Assembly: GCF_017313265.1 (NCBI RefSeq)
Contig: NZ_JAFLQZ010000023.1
Coordinates: 1 to 64,000, forward strand
Direction of reading: 5' to 3'
DNA: 64,000 bases
Source: Hymenobacter telluris
GTDB taxonomy: Bacteria; Bacteroidota; Bacteroidia; Cytophagales; Hymenobacteraceae
Both the position numbers and the translations under genes were made by a program. The first letter of the stretch is position 1; every line of letters starts with the position of its first letter. Positions 1,774 to 14,511 of the stretch are shown in pieces. The notes beneath the pieces are model-generated. The model was not told the DNA's origin, searched no databases, and saw only the letters and a list, made by a program, of their open reading frames with translations.

Positions 1774-1776
1774 TTA

Positions 1777-1810
1777 CGCCCTGGCCTGCTGGCCGGGGCG
1801 TTTTGCTTTG
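1777..1810 (+). terminator. Terminator after the lysis cassette
   Basis: A 10-bp stem (1777-1786 with 1791-1800, one T-G wobble, loop TGCT) is followed by TTTTGCTTTG. It lies four bases after the TAA of the spanin-like frame and would end the lysis transcript. Confidence 0.75.
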
Positions 1811-1811
1811 T

Positions 1812-1819
1812 TACCTTCG
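1812..1819 (+). promoter_or_regulatory. Possible -7 box (TACCTTCG) before the structured element
   Basis: TACCTTCG differs by one base from the Bacteroidota -7 consensus TAnnTTTG. If used, transcription would start around 1824-1827, almost exactly at the first base of the long stem that follows. No convincing -33 element is visible, so this is suggestive only. The same octamer occurs just before the recQ start at about 20717. Confidence 0.35.
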
Positions 1820-1822
1820 CCC

Positions 1823-1940
1823 TGCGAACATTACTGGAATACCATTACCTGGAAGCTCTGGGCCGTGACATACGGCCGGGGAGTAGAGCGGGAGCATGAC
1901 CCGTATACGAAAGGGCTTCTAGGAGCCAGTAGTGTTCGCA
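1823..1940 (+). ncRNA. Candidate structured RNA or cis-regulatory leader in the prophage
   Basis: About 118 bases fold into a closed multi-branch shape. The outer stem pairs 1823-1837 with 1926-1940 (15 pairs, one G-U). A second stem pairs 1848-1856 with 1915-1923 (9 pairs, one G-U). Inside are a hairpin 1861-1866 with 1872-1877 (GGCCGT/ACGGCC, 5-base loop) and one at 1889-1892 with 1900-1903 (CGGG/CCCG). It follows a terminator, has a possible -7 box exactly before it, and precedes the small gene at 1971 by 30 bases, so it could be a free small RNA or a 5' leader. No known riboswitch or ribozyme core was recognised. Strand is assumed from context, since the outer stems are nearly symmetric; the G-U pairs fit the plus strand. 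Confidence 0.5.
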
Positions 1941-1970
1941 GCAATTTCCCCGGCTTGCGCCGCTGCTGCT

Positions 1971-2249
1971 ATGGCGAAGAACAATAATCCAATCGGCTTT
2001 ACCAAGCCAAAGCCCATGCCTCGGGAAGCCGAGGAGTCGTACCTGACTGGCCATGGAGATGAGGAAGAGCAGAAGCCAGCCGCTCCGGCGCGCCAGCCCA
2101 AAGCGGCCCCGGTCTACGTCGGCACCAGCGAAAGCCTGGAAATTCTAGCTGCCTACGACCTATTTCCGCTGACTCCGCTCAGCAACCTGGAGCAGCAGCT
2201 GGTACAGGTGGTGGCGGGCCTGGAGCAGCGGATAACAGAATTGGAATAG
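1971..2249 (+). CDS. Small hydrophilic phage protein of unknown function
   Basis: This 92-aa protein was not recognised. It starts MAKNNNPIGF, continues with a lysine- and proline-rich segment, then an acidic patch GDEEEQKP and a proline/alanine linker. It ends in a helical region with leucine heptads (LEQQLVQVVAGLEQRITELE) that looks like a short coiled coil. I chose ATG 1971 over GTG 1932, because the latter lies inside the 3' arm of the long inverted repeat and would add a low-complexity Ala stretch. It stands alone between the structured element and a reversed membrane gene. A frame continuing after its stop also encodes a hydrophobic stretch, so a damaged longer gene is possible. Confidence 0.55.
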   Translation: MAKNNNPIGFTKPKPMPREAEESYLTGHGDEEEQKPAAPARQPKAAPVYVGTSESLEILAAYDLFPLTPLSNLEQQLVQVVAGLEQRITELE

Positions 2250-2333: not shown

Positions 2334-3164
2334 TTACTTGTCGTTTCCTAGATGGCGCAGCAGTTGAATTCCGATTAGATACGGCATTATTAATGGAATG
2401 GCGGGTACAGACACCACAAAACTGGCGGTGACTATAGGCTCTGGCATCGACGCTGGCAGTACGGCCAGCACCGTGCCTAGTAGGCCAAAGAAACCGTACA
2501 ACCAGCTAGAGGCGGGAGAAAGCCATCCCACCACCCGCAAGGAAATGGCAAAGGCTACTGTGGCCAGGTAAAGTAAGGCCACTTCGACCGCGCTGATGGC
2601 CCTGAAGAGGCTGCGTAGGGGCCCGTACCACGCCGGCCGGCTGTCGGTGGGGCCGAATCCTTGGAAGGCTTCTACCAGATAGCTGTGCCAGTAGAGCATG
2701 TTGAGGATGAACAAGGGGAGGGCCACGGAGAGCATTGTCTGGCCTAACAGCGAGTACAAATTTTCTTTGCTCGCTTTTAGTTGCTCGCGCAGTAGGGCAA
2801 AGCCCCCGAGCAGCAGCAGGCCACTCACTATTAGCAGGGCGTACCGAAGTTGCTGCTCGACGGCGGCGGCCGCGTACCCGGCGGCTGTGGACGGGGGAGG
2901 ACCCATACCAAATAGGAGCGAGAGTAGCAGCCATGGGGCGGCCAAGAGTACGGCTGCCACCCCCGTTGCCCGTTGCAAGTCCGTTCCTCGGCCAAACCTG
3001 TGCACCCCCAGCGACCACGCAGCCCCAGCCATCAGGAGCACATTGAGCCCCCAGAGCGGAACGTAGACAGTAGAGCGGACGGGGGCCACTGTGAAGCCCA
3101 ACAGGGCCCCCACAAAAGGCAACAGGACAAGGTAATAATAGCTAAGCGAGCGAGAAACAGGCAT
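2334..3164 (-). CDS. Multi-pass membrane protein, prophage cargo gene, function unknown
   Basis: This 276-aa protein has about seven to eight predicted membrane spans, beginning with a near N-terminal one (YYYLVLLPFVGALLGFTVAP) and ending in IPLIMPYLIGIQLL. I do not recognise a family. It is encoded opposite to all surrounding phage genes, between the lysis cassette and the tail module, with its own promoter region shared divergently with the gene at 3314. That is the typical position of a moron or cargo gene expressed in the lysogen. No catalytic motif is visible. A role in superinfection exclusion is possible but only by analogy. Confidence 0.7.
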   Translation of the reverse strand: MPVSRSLSYYYLVLLPFVGALLGFTVAPVRSTVYVPLWGLNVLLMAGAAWSLGVHRFGRGTDLQRATGVAAVLLAAPWLLLSLLFGMGPPPSTAAGYAAAAVEQQLRYALLIVSGLLLLGGFALLREQLKASKENLYSLLGQTMLSVALPLFILNMLYWHSYLVEAFQGFGPTDSRPAWYGPLRSLFRAISAVEVALLYLATVAFAISLRVVGWLSPASSWLYGFFGLLGTVLAVLPASMPEPIVTASFVVSVPAIPLIMPYLIGIQLLRHLGNDK

Positions 3165-3313
3165 AAATGCAATGCTAACTACGTAGGAATTTCATCAGCA
3201 ATAGAACCTTCCAACATGCGCAAGGCACTGTAATATATTTAAATTAATATATTAATTGGTAGTGGTCATTTCATGTCCTTTTTCACCGAGGCAGCTTGCG
3301 GCAGTTTTGCCGC
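3165..3313. promoter_or_regulatory. AT-rich divergent intergenic region in the prophage
   Basis: This 149-base gap separates the reversed membrane gene from the tail module. It contains an unusually AT-rich tract at about 3230-3258 in which AATATATT occurs twice as short palindromic arms around a TAAATT core. The contrast with the GC-rich flanks suggests a promoter or operator for one or both divergent units. I cannot place exact -33 and -7 boxes. Confidence 0.4.
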
Positions 3314-7988: not shown

Positions 7989-8416
7989 GCCAGGAACTAG
8001 ACCTCGCCAACAAGTGGCTGGACTTCACCATTGAAAGCTTCGTCGAGAACATGCGCAAGCTGCGCATCCAGGACACCGGCACCTTGATGGCCAGCTTTAA
8101 AAAACAGGTCATCGGCTCGGCCGAGGGGCGCCTGCAGTTGCAGCTCAGCTACGCGCTGTATGGCAAGTTCATCGACATGGGCGTGGGCCGCGGCATGGGC
8201 CAGGGCGTGCGCCGCGGCGATGACGGCTACGACCGGATTCGCACCAGCCGCGGCCGCCTGCGGCGCAAAGAGCGCAAGGCCCGCAAGTGGTACAGCCGCG
8301 AAATGGCTTACCAGACCAAGCGCCTGGCTGAACTCATGAGCGAGCTGCACGGCACCGTTCTTATCTCCAGTGTTTCCGATGCCCTGCCTGCGCAGGACGT
8401 CACCATTATCTTTTAA
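7985..8416 (+). CDS. Small basic phage tail-completion-like protein
   Basis: This 143-aa protein has an N-terminal helical part (LANKWLDFTIESFVENMRKL), a short TGTLMASFKK segment, and a central ALYGKFIDMGVGRGMGQG motif. It is followed by a strongly basic Arg/Lys stretch and a helical tail. The 'SF...Y..F.E.G' style layout recalls HK97 gp10-like head-tail joining or tail-completion proteins, which also contain a short helix, a Gly-rich loop and basic residues. The similarity is weak and by eye. It overlaps the preceding gene by four bases and ends 11 bases before the tape measure gene. Confidence 0.65.
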   Translation: MSQELDLANKWLDFTIESFVENMRKLRIQDTGTLMASFKKQVIGSAEGRLQLQLSYALYGKFIDMGVGRGMGQGVRRGDDGYDRIRTSRGRLRRKERKARKWYSREMAYQTKRLAELMSELHGTVLISSVSDALPAQDVTIIF

Positions 8417-8427
8417 GCGAAGCCGTT

Positions 8428-11400
8428 ATGGCCGAAAATAGCGAAGAACGGAAAGTCAAGATCCTGCTCGATGCGCAGCAGGCCAACGCCAGCATCAAGG
8501 AAATGGGGGCCGGCGCCGCCATCATGAAGAGCCAGCTGGATAAGATGGCCCAGGATGATCCGCGCCGGGCGCAACTCATCAACGACCACGCGCAATTACG
8601 CGAACGGATCCAGGAAGCCGCCCTGGCCCAGCGCACCTACGTCAAGTCCACCGAGGAGCTGGCGCGGGAGCAGGCCCAGCTAGCGCAGCAAAACCAGGAA
8701 GTCATTCTGAACGGACAAAAAGTGACGGCCTCCTTCAACGACATGAAGGCTTCGGCCGACTTGCTCGAGCAGCAGTTGCACGCGTTGTCGGCCGACGATC
8801 CGGGGCGCAAGAAGATGCTGGCCGACTACCAGGCCCTGCAGGAGCGCATTGACGGCGTGAAGAAGGAAATGGGCGAAACCACCGAAAAAGGTCTGACCAT
8901 GAAAGATGCGCTGGCCTTTGCCGGCGTGGGTGTAGGCCTGGAAGCGGCTGTGGACGTTGTAAAGGAAATGGGGGCCGAAGTTGTGCAGACCGTGCAGGAG
9001 TTCGAGAAGCTGCGCAGCTCCATCAACGGCCTAACCGGCGCCACTGGGGAGGAGCTCGACCAGCTCACCACCGGCGTGGCGGGCCTGGCCAAGACCTTCG
9101 GCAAGGAATACGACGAGGTGCTGGTGGCCAGCAACGCGCTGGCCAAGCAGATGGGCATTTCCCAGCAGGAGGCCCTCACCTTACTGGAGAAAGGCTTCGT
9201 GGCCGGCGCCGATGTCAACGGCGAGTTTCTCGACCAGGTGAAGGAGTACCCGGCCCAGTTCAAGCAGGCGGGTCTCTCGGCCTCCGAGTTCATCGGCGTG
9301 CTGAGCCAGTCGCAGACGGATGGCGTGTTTTCCGACAAGGGTGTCGACGTGGTCAAGGAGTTCGGCCTCCGGATCCGGGAGCAAACCAGCGCCACCAAGG
9401 ACGCGCTGTACGCTGCGTTTGGCCCGGAGTTTACCAAGGAAATCCTGGACGGCGTCAACAACGGCAGCCTCACGTCGGTGCAGGCGCTGCAGCGCATTTC
9501 GCAGCAGATGAACGACACCCAGATTCCGGCCGCTCAGCTGCAAACCGTCATTGCCGACGTGTTCGGCGGGCCGGGCGAGGACGCCGGGCTGGAGTATTTG
9601 CAGTCGCTGCGCAACGTGGGCGGGGGTATCGACTCGCTGATCGACAAGACCAACCCGTACGTGCAGCGCCAGCAGGCCCTGCTCGATTCCAACAAGGCGC
9701 TGGCCGCCACCCAGAACGACCTGGCCAAGGAGTTCGAAGGCACCGGCACCAGTCTGGAAATGCTGGGCAACAACGGCCTGGCGCTGCTCTACACGCTGCT
9801 CACTTCGCTGATTGTCACCTTTAAGGAGCTCTTCCAGCCCATCCAGGATATCTGGAACTCGTTTATGGAGCTGGGTCAGGCCGTGGGCATCTTCTCGCAG
9901 GGGGGCACCTCGGCCGTGAGTGTGGGCCAAGCGCTGGGCAACGTGATCCGGGCGCTGTTCACGCCCACGCGCCTGCTCTGGGGCGCGCTGGCCGAGGGTG
10001 CCAAGTCGTTGGTAGAATGGGCGAAGGGCTCGGAAACGGCCCGTGCTGCGCTAACCGTCATGGCTGCGCCCCTGCGCGGGCTCTATGAGCTACTCATGAA
10101 CGGGCCCGCGTACTTCGCCGGCTTCTCGGCCGCGGCCGAGAGCAGCTTCGGCACCATCGGCCGGGCCTGGCAACGAATTAAGAACCGGGACTTCGGTGGC
10201 GCGGCCGATGAGTTCAAGGGCATCGGTAAAAAGGCCGGGGATGCGTATGCGGATGCTTTTGCTCAGGCCATGGCCAAGAAGCCGGCGCCGGCCGCCAGCA
10301 CCCCCGCGAAGGCCGACGATCCGGAGGCGCCAAAACGGGCCGCGGGCGGGGATGGGACCACCGAAAAGGACCGGGAAAAGGCGGCCAAGGATGCGGAAAC
10401 TGCGCGGGCCAAAGCCAAAGCGGCCCGCGACAAAGCCGACCAGGAACATCTGGATGCCATCAAACTGCGCTACAAAGAGGAAGGCGGCTTGCTGGTGGCG
10501 CAGGACGCGTTGCGCAACCAGCTGGGCCAGCGGGCCCTCTCCGATGAGGAAGCCCTGCGCGCCCAGCAGCGCCAGAAGCTCTTCGACGATGCCGATGCCC
10601 AGGTGGAAAAACTCACCGGCAAGGAAATTGACTACACCGAGCAGGTAAAAGCCATCGTGGAAGCGCGGGGCCTGGCCCTGCGCGAGCTGCAAACCAAGTT
10701 CGAGGCTGAAGACAAAAAGGCCCGGCAGGAAAAGCTCGAGGCCAAGCGGGCCCAAAACCAGGCCGACGAGGAAATCGCCCTGGCCGAATTGGAAGTGAAG
10801 CTGGCCAACGGCGTGCTCAACGAGCAAACGTACGAGGATGCCATTTACGCCGTGAAAAAAGCGGCGGCCGACCGGGAGCTGGCGTTGCTCAAAGAGCAGA
10901 AGGGTGCCGAGTCCGCAGAATATAAGAAGGCCGTGGCCGATAAGCTAGCCGCCGAGGCCGACCACATTACGAAGAAAAAGAAGCTCGAGGAGGACCTCAC
11001 CAAATACGAGCGGGCGCTGGGCGCGGTAAAAAAGGCCCTGGGTAATGAGGAGCTGGCTTTTGTGGGGGAGTTGTTCGGCAAAAAATCGGGGCTCTACAAA
11101 GCCTTCGTGGCGGCGCAGAAAGCGACGGCCATCGCCGAGATTGGGCTGAACCTGGTATCGGAGCTATCAAGCAACTCGAAAAACGCGGCCGCCTTCCCGC
11201 CGCCGTTCAACGGCATCTACCTGCTGGCCACCAATGCTCTGTCGGTGGTGCGGGCGGGCGTGGCCACGGCCAAGGTGGCGGGCTTCCGGGAAGGGGGCAG
11301 TACCAGTGCCGGCAACGGCACCCTGGACTTGAACCGGTTGCAGGTAGCGCCCAACGGCAAGCTGCTTGATCAGGATGGCTTTGCCGTCGCGGGCCTGGTG

Positions 11401-12730: not shown

Positions 12731-13354
12731 ATGCGAGTAGCACTTTACGCCCGCGTATCAACGGCCGACAAGGATCAGGACCCGGAAAATCAGTTGCAGG
12801 TACTGCGCCGGGAGGCTGAGCGTGCTGGCGACGTGGTGTATAAAGAATACGTCGACGAGGATTCAGGCCGTAAGTCCAGCCGCAAAGCCTTCCAGCAACT
12901 GCTCTCCGATGCCGGCAAGCGTCGCTTCGACATGGTGCGGGTGTGGGACTTGAGCCGCTTCAGCCGCGAGGGGATTGAGAAGGTGTTTGAGCACACGTCT
13001 GTTTTGGAGCAGTGCGGCGTGAGCTTCTGGAGCTACTCGGAGCCCATGCTCAACACGGCCGGCCCGATGAAGGACTTCATGAAGGCCGTGCTCAGCTGGG
13101 CCGCCGGCTACTACAGTGAGCGGCTTAGTGAGAACGTGAAGCAGGGGCTACACCGCAAGAAGGCCCAGGCCGCGTTGAAGGGCGAAGCATACGTGCACGG
13201 CCGCCGGGCGCTGGCGCCGGCCGTGGTGGAGGAAATTCGGGCCCTGCAGCAAGATGGGCTGAGTGTGCGCAAGATTAGCGCGGCTACGGGGGTAGCGGTC
13301 GGCACCTTGCACAAGTACTTGGTCAAGCCCGTGGTGGCAGAAGAGGCAAGGTAG
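12731..13354 (+). CDS. Small serine recombinase (resolvase/invertase family)
   Basis: This 207-aa protein begins MRVALYARVSTADKDQDPEN, the standard catalytic N-terminus with Arg8 and nucleophile Ser10. It continues with the usual RWDxSRFSR-type motif (VWDLSRFSREGIEKV), the long E helix, and a C-terminal helix-turn-helix (EIRALQQDGLSVRKISAATG followed by VAVGTLHKYL). Length and layout match resolvases and DNA invertases rather than large phage serine integrases. It could excise or invert part of the prophage, resolve a transposon, or be a leftover of a mobile element. No gene for a partner transposase is visible. It runs toward the STAS-like gene, whose stop lies three bases away on the other strand. 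Confidence 0.9.
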   Translation: MRVALYARVSTADKDQDPENQLQVLRREAERAGDVVYKEYVDEDSGRKSSRKAFQQLLSDAGKRRFDMVRVWDLSRFSREGIEKVFEHTSVLEQCGVSFWSYSEPMLNTAGPMKDFMKAVLSWAAGYYSERLSENVKQGLHRKKAQAALKGEAYVHGRRALAPAVVEEIRALQQDGLSVRKISAATGVAVGTLHKYLVKPVVAEEAR

Positions 13355-13357
13355 GAG

Positions 13358-13762
13358 TTACCGCCTAATCGGTTGGCGGGCCAGCCAGTCGTAGGCATCC
13401 AGCCCCTCCGTAAACACGGAAATGTACGGGACCGTAGCGTGCTGGATGATGTCAAGCAGGGTACGACTAGCGGACCAATCCCGAGCTACCACCCAAGCAA
13501 CGTGTGTAATACCCGCCTGGGCAAGTTGCGGTAAGTAATCCGTACTCACCCACTGCTCGAGTTCGTCCCAGCCATCGTAGGCCATACTGCTGTCACAGAG
13601 CAAGCGACTGCAATCTAGCTGTTGCGCATGGCGCAGGAGGATGGCACAGCTCTCCAAAGAAGAAGCGGCGTTGTGGGTGCCCTGCCACTCGGCTTGCAGC
13701 CATTGAAAAAGTTCGTCGTAGCCTAGCGTAAAGAATAGCGACGTATAGAGATTTTTTATCAT
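13358..13762 (-). CDS. STAS/SpoIIAA-like protein (paralogue of the gene at 19860)
   Basis: This 134-aa protein resembles the STAS/SEC14-like (SpoIIAA-like) proteins that are numerous in Hymenobacter. It starts MIKNLYTSLFFTLGYDEL (an ATG three codons upstream is also possible). It contains LQAEWQGTH, a cysteine-bearing LDCSRLLCDSS strand, and the shared block WVSTDYLPQLAQAGITHVAWV. The paralogue at 19860-20354 has the equivalent WLATEYLPHIEAAGVEYMAW. The family's biochemical role is not established; it is usually thought of as a small regulatory or binding fold. The gene is convergent with the serine recombinase and has an AT-rich upstream region of its own. Confidence 0.75.
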   Translation of the reverse strand: MIKNLYTSLFFTLGYDELFQWLQAEWQGTHNAASSLESCAILLRHAQQLDCSRLLCDSSMAYDGWDELEQWVSTDYLPQLAQAGITHVAWVVARDWSASRTLLDIIQHATVPYISVFTEGLDAYDWLARQPIRR

Positions 13763-13930
13763 CCTATACATACGGTGCTACGCGGAGCGATAAATACGGA
13801 AATTAAAACGAGATTAATAACGCCTCGTCAGTAACTACGCAGCCGCCGGCTGTTTTGTGTCCTTTTCGGCCCTCGGTCGTGAGGTGAGCTTTGAGTTCTT
13901 CAACTCACTGTTCACCTCATTGTCCTTCGT

Positions 13931-14365
13931 ATGAAACTGTATTTAGTAGGTGCCTGCCTGGCGTCTGCTTTCTTCCTCCAGACCCAGCTACTAGCGCAGG
14001 CCCCTCCTACCCTTTCGATAGAAAGGGTGACGCCTGGCCACGATAAGTGGGAGCACCTGCTCACGCTGAGCACTAGCCTCGACACCGTTGATTTGACAGT
14101 GCCTACCACTCCCTCGATGCTGCGGGCGGAGGTGAGCCCACCGCGCTACGACTATCGTAACGCCCGCCGGGTGGAGCGCAAGTACAACCGGGTGCGGCGC
14201 TACTACCGGCGCCAGAACCGCCGCGACACCCGCGGCCTGCAAAGGGAGAGCCACCGCAAGTACCAGTTGCAATGCCGGCAGATCCTGCAGGAAGAAAAAC
14301 AGCGAAAAAAAGAACGGCACAAGCGGCCAGTAGAGGCCGAACAGAAGCCGCGAAATAGGCCGTAA
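13931..14365 (+). CDS. Small secreted basic protein of unknown function
   Basis: The 144-aa product has a signal peptide (MKLYLVGACLASAFFLQTQLLAQA). The mature N-terminal half has mixed beta character. The C-terminal 70 residues are extremely basic and helical, with many Arg, Lys, Tyr and Gln (NARRVERKYNRVRRYYRRQN), likely a coiled or nucleic-acid- or envelope-binding tail. I recognise no family. It stands alone between an AT-rich region and a strong terminator that lies 38 bases after its stop. Confidence 0.65.
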   Translation: MKLYLVGACLASAFFLQTQLLAQAPPTLSIERVTPGHDKWEHLLTLSTSLDTVDLTVPTTPSMLRAEVSPPRYDYRNARRVERKYNRVRRYYRRQNRRDTRGLQRESHRKYQLQCRQILQEEKQRKKERHKRPVEAEQKPRNRP

Positions 14366-14402
14366 CGGCTAATTGTGACACACAATCTGCCACATAAAAA
14401 AT

Positions 14403-14437
14403 AAAAACCCCCTCAGTTTGATACTGAGGGGGTTTTT
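14403..14437 (+). terminator. Bidirectional terminator between a secreted-protein gene and tRNA-Arg
   Basis: A perfect 14-bp stem (14403-14416 with 14424-14437, loop TTTGATA) is flanked by A5 and T5. It can serve the plus-strand gene ending at 14365 and the minus-strand tRNA. Confidence 0.9.
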
Positions 14438-14439
14438 AG

Positions 14440-14511
14440 TGGTCACGCTAGGAATCGAACCTAGATCAAGAGCTTCGGAAACTCTTATACTATCCGTTGT
14501 ACGACGTGACC
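14440..14511 (-). tRNA. tRNA-Arg (anticodon CCG)
   Basis: The reverse complement folds as a 72-nt cloverleaf: acceptor GGTCACG/CGTGACC, D arm GTAC/GTAT with loop AACGGATA, anticodon stem AGAGT/GCTCT around loop TTCCGAA (anticodon CCG), a four-base variable loop, and T arm CTAGG-TTCGATT-CCTAG, then discriminator A. The 3' CCA is not encoded. It lies about 1.1 kb downstream of the serine recombinase, so it might mark an integration hot spot, but I saw no duplicated tRNA 3' end in the window. Confidence 0.95.

Follow-up and report, generated by a model that had tools for sequence, protein, structure and literature searches.

A pseudoknotted RNA family preceding small open reading frames in Cytophagales phages and chromosomal cassettes: a candidate translational leader

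Background

A prophage of Hymenobacter telluris carries, shortly before a small gene, a compact palindromic stretch that a first-pass annotation had read as a multi-branched, RNA-like element of no recognised class. The locus raises the question of whether this element is a transcribed RNA or a DNA-level mobile element and, if an RNA, whether it acts as a free molecule or as the leader of the gene that begins at position 1971. Here we analyze the element in its genomic context and in its homologues. The window is the whole stretch of DNA analyzed, 64,000 nucleotides in length, which forms the start of a 68.5 kb contig (NZ_JAFLQZ010000023.1); unless a locus is named, coordinates refer to it.

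Results and discussion

Architecture of the element

The minimum free energy predicted for positions 1823-1940 is -60.3 kcal/mol, as compared to -34.8 +/- 3.9 kcal/mol for 200 dinucleotide shuffles, none of which folds as well (0/200; z -6.6). The predicted fold is made up of an outer stem (P1), a second stem (P2) and two inner hairpins (P3 and P4), and it bears out much of the original outline: the 15-bp outer stem with its single G-U pair and both hairpins were found, a terminator-like hairpin and a possible -7 box precede them, and a small gene starts 30 bases downstream (Table 1). Two dimensions had to be revised. The second stem had been given 9 bp, which fits the outer part of P2 (with one G-U pair there), but the predicted helix has 12; and the 118-base shape folds as described, but its end at 1940 cannot be upheld, because one strand of a pseudoknot falls beyond it and the RNA reaches to about 1955-1970.

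Table 1. Features of the RNA unit in the window
Feature	Position	Strand	Remarks and basis
Terminator-like hairpin with T run	1776-1801	+	Closes upstream lysis genes; script search
-7-like box TACCTTCG, Bacteroidota type	1812-1819	+	12 nt 5' of P1
P1, outer stem	1823-1837/1926-1940	+	15 bp, one G-U; predicted fold
P2	1848-1859/1912-1923	+	12 bp in predicted fold
P3, variable hairpin	1861-1877	+	Predicted fold and alignments
Pseudoknot strand B, GGCCGGGGAG	1874-1883	+	Alignment pairing and helix search
P4, hairpin with loop AGCATGA at 1893-1899	1888-1904	+	Predicted fold and alignments
GNRA linker from P1 to strand C	1941-1944	+	Third letter G in 61/64, A in the window copy
Pseudoknot strand C, TTCCCCGGCT	1946-1955	+	Alignment pairing and helix search
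Optional P5 strand, GCTGC	1962-1966	+	Could pair with GCAGC at 1938-1942, just before start codon
Small ORF, 92 aa, no known family	1971-2249	+	ORF call

The box is named on the basis of what we take to be the -7 promoter motif of the Bacteroidota. A hairpin in a place comparable to that of the upstream terminator is present in most, not all, of the 23 mapped loci. Pairing of the P5 type, of at least 4 bp, can be drawn in 29/29 loci of the window's own group and in 27/35 others, which is weak evidence in the absence of a background control. The product of the 92-aa ORF is modelled by AlphaFold with low confidence (mean pLDDT 66.4) and shows two C-terminal helices. In a blastn search of the 6.0 Mb genome that contains the window, the element matches only itself.

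Homologues and distribution

Among 120 genomes of the same genus, blastn returned matches in 19, a number of them short and due to chance, and a covariance model built from seven members (R1) located 23 places in 19 of the 120. Applied to 204 genomes of the family, R1 was positive in 19, all of the window's own genus (one of six genera), and it was positive in 12 of 291 genomes of the order. A model of 28 members (R2) detected the element in 17 of 390 genomes of the order, including two from a further family (f11), and in 2 of 395 genomes of the class, while a model of 31 members (R3) found 61 places in 30 of 200 f11 genomes, distributed over 7 of 36 genera and with up to five copies per genome in the genus g58; R3 was positive also in 2 of 247 genomes of the phylum, both of the window's genus. 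The R3 search of f11 admitted E-values up to 0.05, and its place in genome G960 (locus L154) is probably spurious. Searches of more than 40 genomes were strictly filtered and may have missed weak relatives.

Viral contigs from IMG/VR yielded further members, two of them through the adjoining holin gene, eight through the pattern of the core and three of a second type; among later pattern matches were L097, L104, L107 and, weakly, L112. The viral pattern scans mostly picked up other places: two of ten stretches fit the model in one scan (a third, at E 2.7, was not counted), as did 2 of 20 in another, these being the already known L097 and the weak L112 (E 0.007). A distant blastn search of phage records gave no match.

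The widest alignment (A7) comprises 65 matches, 64 of them credible. It leaves out the near-duplicates L028, L030, L031, L034 and L036 and takes 30 of the 61 f11 places, namely those with a locus, one per genome; L154 was judged spurious and dropped before the counts over 64 members. At gathering scores, Rfam 15 identifies only a tRNA in the whole window, and every match listed for positions 1700-2100 at E-values up to 5, or for 18 loci at E-values up to 1, lies below the gathering score of its family.

Covariation and conserved letters

The nested helices are strongly supported by their homologues. In an alignment of 28 members (A4), 97.0% of the cells in nested pairs are paired and 27 of 36 pairs have changed on both sides; the corresponding figures for A7 are 92.3% of stem cells and 33 of 36 pairs, the doubly changed ones comprising 13 of the 14 pairs of P1 and all 10 of P2. 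The nested covariation score reaches 0.626 in A4 (at most 0.098 when slid) and 0.723 in A7 (at most 0.131), with the caveat that both alignments, having been fitted to the nested helices, lean towards them. The covariance search called for by the first-pass annotation has thus excluded a lack of covariation, which would have refuted the RNA reading. Read on the plus strand, moreover, the stem cells of 64 members hold 155 G-U as against 37 A-C combinations, as is expected for a plus-strand RNA, and the wobble bias initially noted in the two long stems extends in this way to the family.

Amid these variable stems, four unpaired letters are invariant in 64/64 members: the G at positions 2 and 6 of the P4 loop and, in the GNRA linker that follows P1, the initial G and the final A. 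The P4 loop itself comes in two types, UGNRAGU, which is T-loop-like, and AGNRUGA (23 of 65 matches), with another in L154. Positions 1, 5 and 7 switch jointly between the two, from U, A, U to A, U, A, with 2 and 6 remaining G, as though a non-canonical pair between positions 1 and 5 were being preserved. T-loop hairpins are known from cobalamin riboswitches and from the T arm of tRNA, and the seven-base UGNRAGU loop, found in 41 of 65 matches, resembles them; unlike those RNAs, however, the family shares no other part with them, and the loop of the window copy is AGCATGA.

A pseudoknot beyond the predicted fold

Strands B and C pair over 10 bp in the window. In A4, all 271 two-sided cells of this helix are standard pairs, double changes occur in 4 of its 10 pairs, and its covariation score (0.268) exceeds that of any slid register (at most 0.121) and of every shuffle (0/500 as high). 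The pseudoknot is part of no covariance model used. The least clear of five measures, the number of further pair types, gave 12 as compared to 9.7, with 7/500 shuffles as high. A script that takes the best helix between the 24 letters 5' of P4 and the tail recovered the pseudoknot, with 6-11 bp, in 63 of 65 matches, at a mean score of 22.4 versus 15.9 when tails were re-dealt among the 65 (range 14.8-16.9 over 20 deals), and the letters involved differ widely among relatives (GGCCGGGGAG/TTCCCCGGCT, GCTGGTTGG/CCAACCAGT, GCCGATTGG/CCAATCGGC, GGCCGGTAAG/CTTACCGGCT). Only L154 and L053 lack it by this script; L053 is a deletion derivative that holds both GGCCGGGG and CCCCGGC, the former outside the letters searched. 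The covariation would also be compatible with additional, intermolecular pairing of the two strands.

In the window's genus, the 3' strand of P3 overlaps strand B by 4-5 nt. A mutually exclusive switch between P3 and the pseudoknot was considered and dropped because, by eye, the overlap is absent in L097 and minimal in L093.

Taken with the lack of an Rfam family and the wobble bias, this covariation leaves the original assessment of an RNA of no known class standing, as far as can be judged from sequence.

The ORF behind the RNA

The -7-like box lies 12 nt 5' of P1 in 58 of 65 matches and 12-14 nt in 61. In 59 of 63 members, an ORF of 55 aa or more begins 3' of strand C at a distance of 6-29 nt (median 18), L053 and L154 having been left out of this count. 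A conserved fold with a conserved unpaired core thus occupies a 5' UTR position, insofar as the start of transcription can be inferred from the box. As to whether the element is a free RNA or the leader of the gene at 1971, a distinction the first-pass annotation had left to be drawn, the ORF just behind the RNA in 59/63 leans towards the leader, without settling the matter.

The ORFs encode 66-231 aa (120 or fewer in 56 of 59), and a profile comparison of the three main ORF families detected no homology among them, albeit with small alignments (10, 12 and 13 members). Pfam gave no match above cut-offs for the ORF families, and PHROGs only weak ones (best E 0.002). Since the RNA is common to ORF families without detectable homology, the conserved part of the unit is the RNA. 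In two members from IMG/VR (L104:421-1116 and L107:3675-4232), the ORF behind the RNA consists of repeats of a K/E/N-rich stretch and is unlike the others listed.

No ORF of 55 aa follows the RNA in 4 of 63 members, including L071. In L071 and L076, of the same genus, box and RNA lead into a terminator-like hairpin, with no ORF behind them, and in H. perfusus (L026) a homologue of the ORF occurs without the RNA, so that each of the two can occur in the absence of the other. Where the mapped loci have an ORF, no terminator-like hairpin turned up between it and the RNA.

Pairing of the start region in g58

In the leaders of g58, the start region, which is taken to begin with the G of the ATG, can base-pair with the 3' strand of P1 in the same leader. 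Across 24 g58 leaders, the mean score of this pairing is 26.0, versus 19.0 when partners are shuffled within these 24 (0/500 as high), and inclusion of L097 changes it little (25.9 versus 18.6; 0/500); in 18 of the 24 it scores at least as high as the longest uninterrupted run of P1. Codon 2 is CAA where the RNA starts with GCAA (19 leaders) and CGA where it starts with GCGA (6), without exception in the 25 leaders (24 of g58 plus L097), which are related copies and not 25 independent events; in these sequences, the amino-acid change at codon 2 follows the RNA. The predicted best fold contains P1 in 17 of the 25, the start pairing in 6 and neither in 2, and the two states, when forced, lie within 5 kcal/mol of each other in 18/25 (pseudoknots not modelled). 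On paper, and for g58 only, these features are those expected of a translational switch.

A wider group of 35 loci gave a similar excess (21.9 versus 15.1; 0/200 as high); it mixes lineages, and the comparison was repeated within g58. The window's own group shows no start pairing (11.6 versus 11.4 shuffled, 57/200 as high, n=29), and cis control there rests, as a result, on position alone. The own-group and wider-group tests leave out L173 and L112 (for want of an anchor) as well as those loci in which no ORF had been called.

Phage and cassette contexts

The element had been placed in the prophage, which is correct for the window copy but too narrow for the family, since this occurs also in dispersed chromosomal cassettes of g58. 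In the type-1 phages of the window's genus, a portal-like gene, DUF6712 and often holin, endolysin and spanin-like genes lie on the 5' side, ahead of box and RNA, and are followed on the 3' side by the ORF of ~66-115 aa, in many cases by an Amidoligase_2 gene pair, and then by tail genes. Type-2 phages, found also in family f11 (L095, L168-L171 and L173), present head-protease and capsid-like genes, the RNA, an ORF of 72-120 aa, a gene of ~210-260 aa and then a ParB-like and a TAGT glycosyltransferase gene; L069 combines a type-1 RNA with type-2 surroundings. In the representatives scanned, Pfam or PHROGs matched holin, endolysin, head protease, portal, DUF6712, Amidoligase_2 and TAGT; capsid, spanin-like and ParB-like, and in part portal, are our own reading, and genes of loci not scanned were named from their similarity or location.

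The g58 unit is a cassette of ~500 bp, made up of box, RNA, 95-aa ORF and terminator and lying between unrelated genes. In some genomes, these cassettes (L155-L167, L174) are found within tens of kilobases of one another, together with decayed partial copies.

A terminator-like hairpin lies at most 170 nt behind the ORF in 11 of 15 type-1 loci that have one, and was not seen in the other four, which are the window, L060, L061 and L070, the contig of the last ending there. The idea of a simple leader of the tail operon is weakened by these 11 loci.

Proposed function and its alternatives

We propose, at what we would call an even chance, that the element represents a new family of compact 5' leader RNAs controlling the translation of small ORFs. 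Secondary structure, pseudoknot, fixed distance to the box and location before small ORFs are observed; the start of transcription and cis control of ribosome access are inferred, and no transcript, ligand or function has been demonstrated. Judging from the box, transcription would probably start at or a few bases 5' of P1, which would make the RNA the extreme 5' end of the small-ORF message. The transcript is then predicted to close into P1, P2, an asymmetric internal loop and the P3/P4 junction, with P4 T-loop-like in most members, and a pseudoknot of 6-11 bp, whose distal strand lies 6-29 nt 5' of the start codon, would complete the fold, which may control access of the ribosome to the start codon in cis. 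For an RNA at the 5' end of a message and directly before its start codon, cis control of translation is the simplest use, and strand C presumably falls inside the footprint of the 30S subunit. The Bacteroidota are described as lacking Shine-Dalgarno sequences (PMC6847099). In g58, the start codon region and the P1 5' strand might compete for the P1 3' strand, and the trigger of such a switch could be a metabolite, a protein or folding kinetics alone. Against the leader reading stand the two members L071 and L076, which have a terminator but lack an ORF, as would suit a free RNA, and the ORF homologue of H. perfusus, which manages without the RNA. Only tentatively do we take the proposal further, to an undescribed riboswitch-like class of translational switch that Cytophagales phages and dispersed one-gene cassettes would have spread: a T-loop/pseudoknot module at the 5' extremity of the message would gate the translation of an interchangeable small ORF, with the g58 start region serving as the competing strand.

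Were the element instead a free, trans-acting small RNA, its 3' end would arise by processing or at a terminator, and the ORF would be a frequent neighbour or fused cargo. L071 and L076 have just this make-up of box, RNA and terminator; the lack of detectable homology among ORF families and the occurrence of the ORF without RNA in L026 point the same way, and compact closed ends suit a stable RNA. Still, we deem a free RNA unlikely, if deserving of serious attention, given the start of the ORF 6-29 nt past the pseudoknot in 59/63, the lack of any terminator-like hairpin found between RNA and ORF in the mapped ORF-bearing loci and the way codon 2 follows P1 in g58.

A ligand-binding riboswitch, with the P4 junction and the pseudoknot as aptamer, would be a specific form of the leader reading. 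SAM-II and preQ1-II exemplify translational riboswitches whose pseudoknot lies close to the start site, and the new RNA resembles them in being a compact 5' leader with a pseudoknot strand before the start codon and a conserved unpaired core. The unpaired letters invariant in 64/64 amid variable stems and the alternative start pairing of g58 agree with such a role, whereas the downstream genes are unknown small ORFs without a shared pathway, nothing hints at a ligand (a protein, or no ligand, is equally possible) and the window's group lacks the alternative pairing; we consider a riboswitch in this strict sense rather unlikely. The new RNA also differs from SAM-II and preQ1-II in its larger size, its P1 outer stem and T-loop-like hairpin, the absence of an Rfam match and of any ligand or pathway, and its host phylum, described as devoid of Shine-Dalgarno sequences (PMC6847099).

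More doubtful is a role in processive antitermination for the downstream operon. EAR is an element of this kind, and its fold, like that of the HK022 put RNA, is presumably different from the one described here. The put RNA is described as a processive antitermination element (PMC9378689). As with put and EAR, the new RNA is a structured RNA right behind a promoter and no phage protein is obviously needed; it sits directly behind the box, at least two terminator-like hairpins precede the first tail gene in 9 of the 13 type-1 loci that have an ORF and in which tail genes can be seen, and such a hairpin follows the RNA immediately in L071 and L076. Unlike put and EAR, however, its units frequently close, past a single small ORF, with a terminator-like hairpin of their own, as does the single-ORF unit of g58, and a separate promoter for the tail operon is not settled, so that the need for readthrough is not settled either.

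We see poor prospects for a message of the type I toxin-antitoxin kind, in which a structured 5' end and sequestration of the start would silence a harmful small ORF: multiple dispersed box-RNA-ORF-terminator cassettes and start pairing in g58 would fit, but the ORFs (66-231 aa, 56/59 of at most 120 aa) do not look by eye like membrane toxins, no antisense RNA is known (none was searched for) and the ORF of type-2 phages is the first gene of an operon of several genes. A DNA-level palindromic repeat or mobile element with an incidental fold is hardly credible: the recurrence named as a refutation by the first-pass annotation does occur in g58, where a ~500 bp cassette is dispersed between unrelated flanks, but it involves the whole box-RNA-ORF-terminator unit, and mobility alone cannot yield covariation that includes the pseudoknot, next to which stand the strand-biased wobble (155 G-U, 37 A-C), the fixed distance to the box and the single match in the window's genome.

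Relation to known RNAs

The closed outer helix, three-way junction and phage structural-gene neighbourhood of the phi29 pRNA recur in the new RNA, which differs from it in the pseudoknot to a 3' tail, the ORF present in most members and its occurrence outside phages as well. We noticed no literature on this RNA in Hymenobacter, Dyadobacter or their phages, although many subscription papers lay outside the scope of the search. It is a new RNA family of a broad kind that is already known, the structured leader. A pseudoknotted RNA without an Rfam match that recurs in several phage types and in chromosomal cassettes, nearly always before small ORFs of unknown nature, suggests a regulatory module answering to a common cue, and it offers a test system for the translation of a highly structured leader in a phylum described as devoid of Shine-Dalgarno sequences.

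Other features of the prophage

The spanin-like gene before the RNA (1408-1773) is split by an in-frame stop at 1579-1581, and its relative in L060 (10088-10492) is a single ORF of 134 aa. Between the RNA unit and the tail genes, the minus strand of the window encodes a hydrophobic protein of 276 aa (2334-3164; mean hydropathy 0.85), for which a tblastn search of the 30 loci L060-L089 returned no relative and which looks like inserted cargo; in L060, the corresponding interval (8190-9397) holds an Amidoligase_2 gene with a 77-aa partner, an arrangement similar to that of several type-1 prophages. Near the prophage end, the window carries a serine recombinase gene and a tRNA-Arg (12731-14511); the prophage of genome G016 (L083) has a similar recombinase followed by similar host genes, and hence probably occupies the same integration site. 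Finally, TGTCCTTTTTCACC is found shortly 5' of the first tail gene in the window (3274-3287) and in L062, where it lies directly behind a terminator-like hairpin; TGTC follows such hairpins in other type-1 loci, and TGTCCTTTTTCACC is possibly a phage late promoter.
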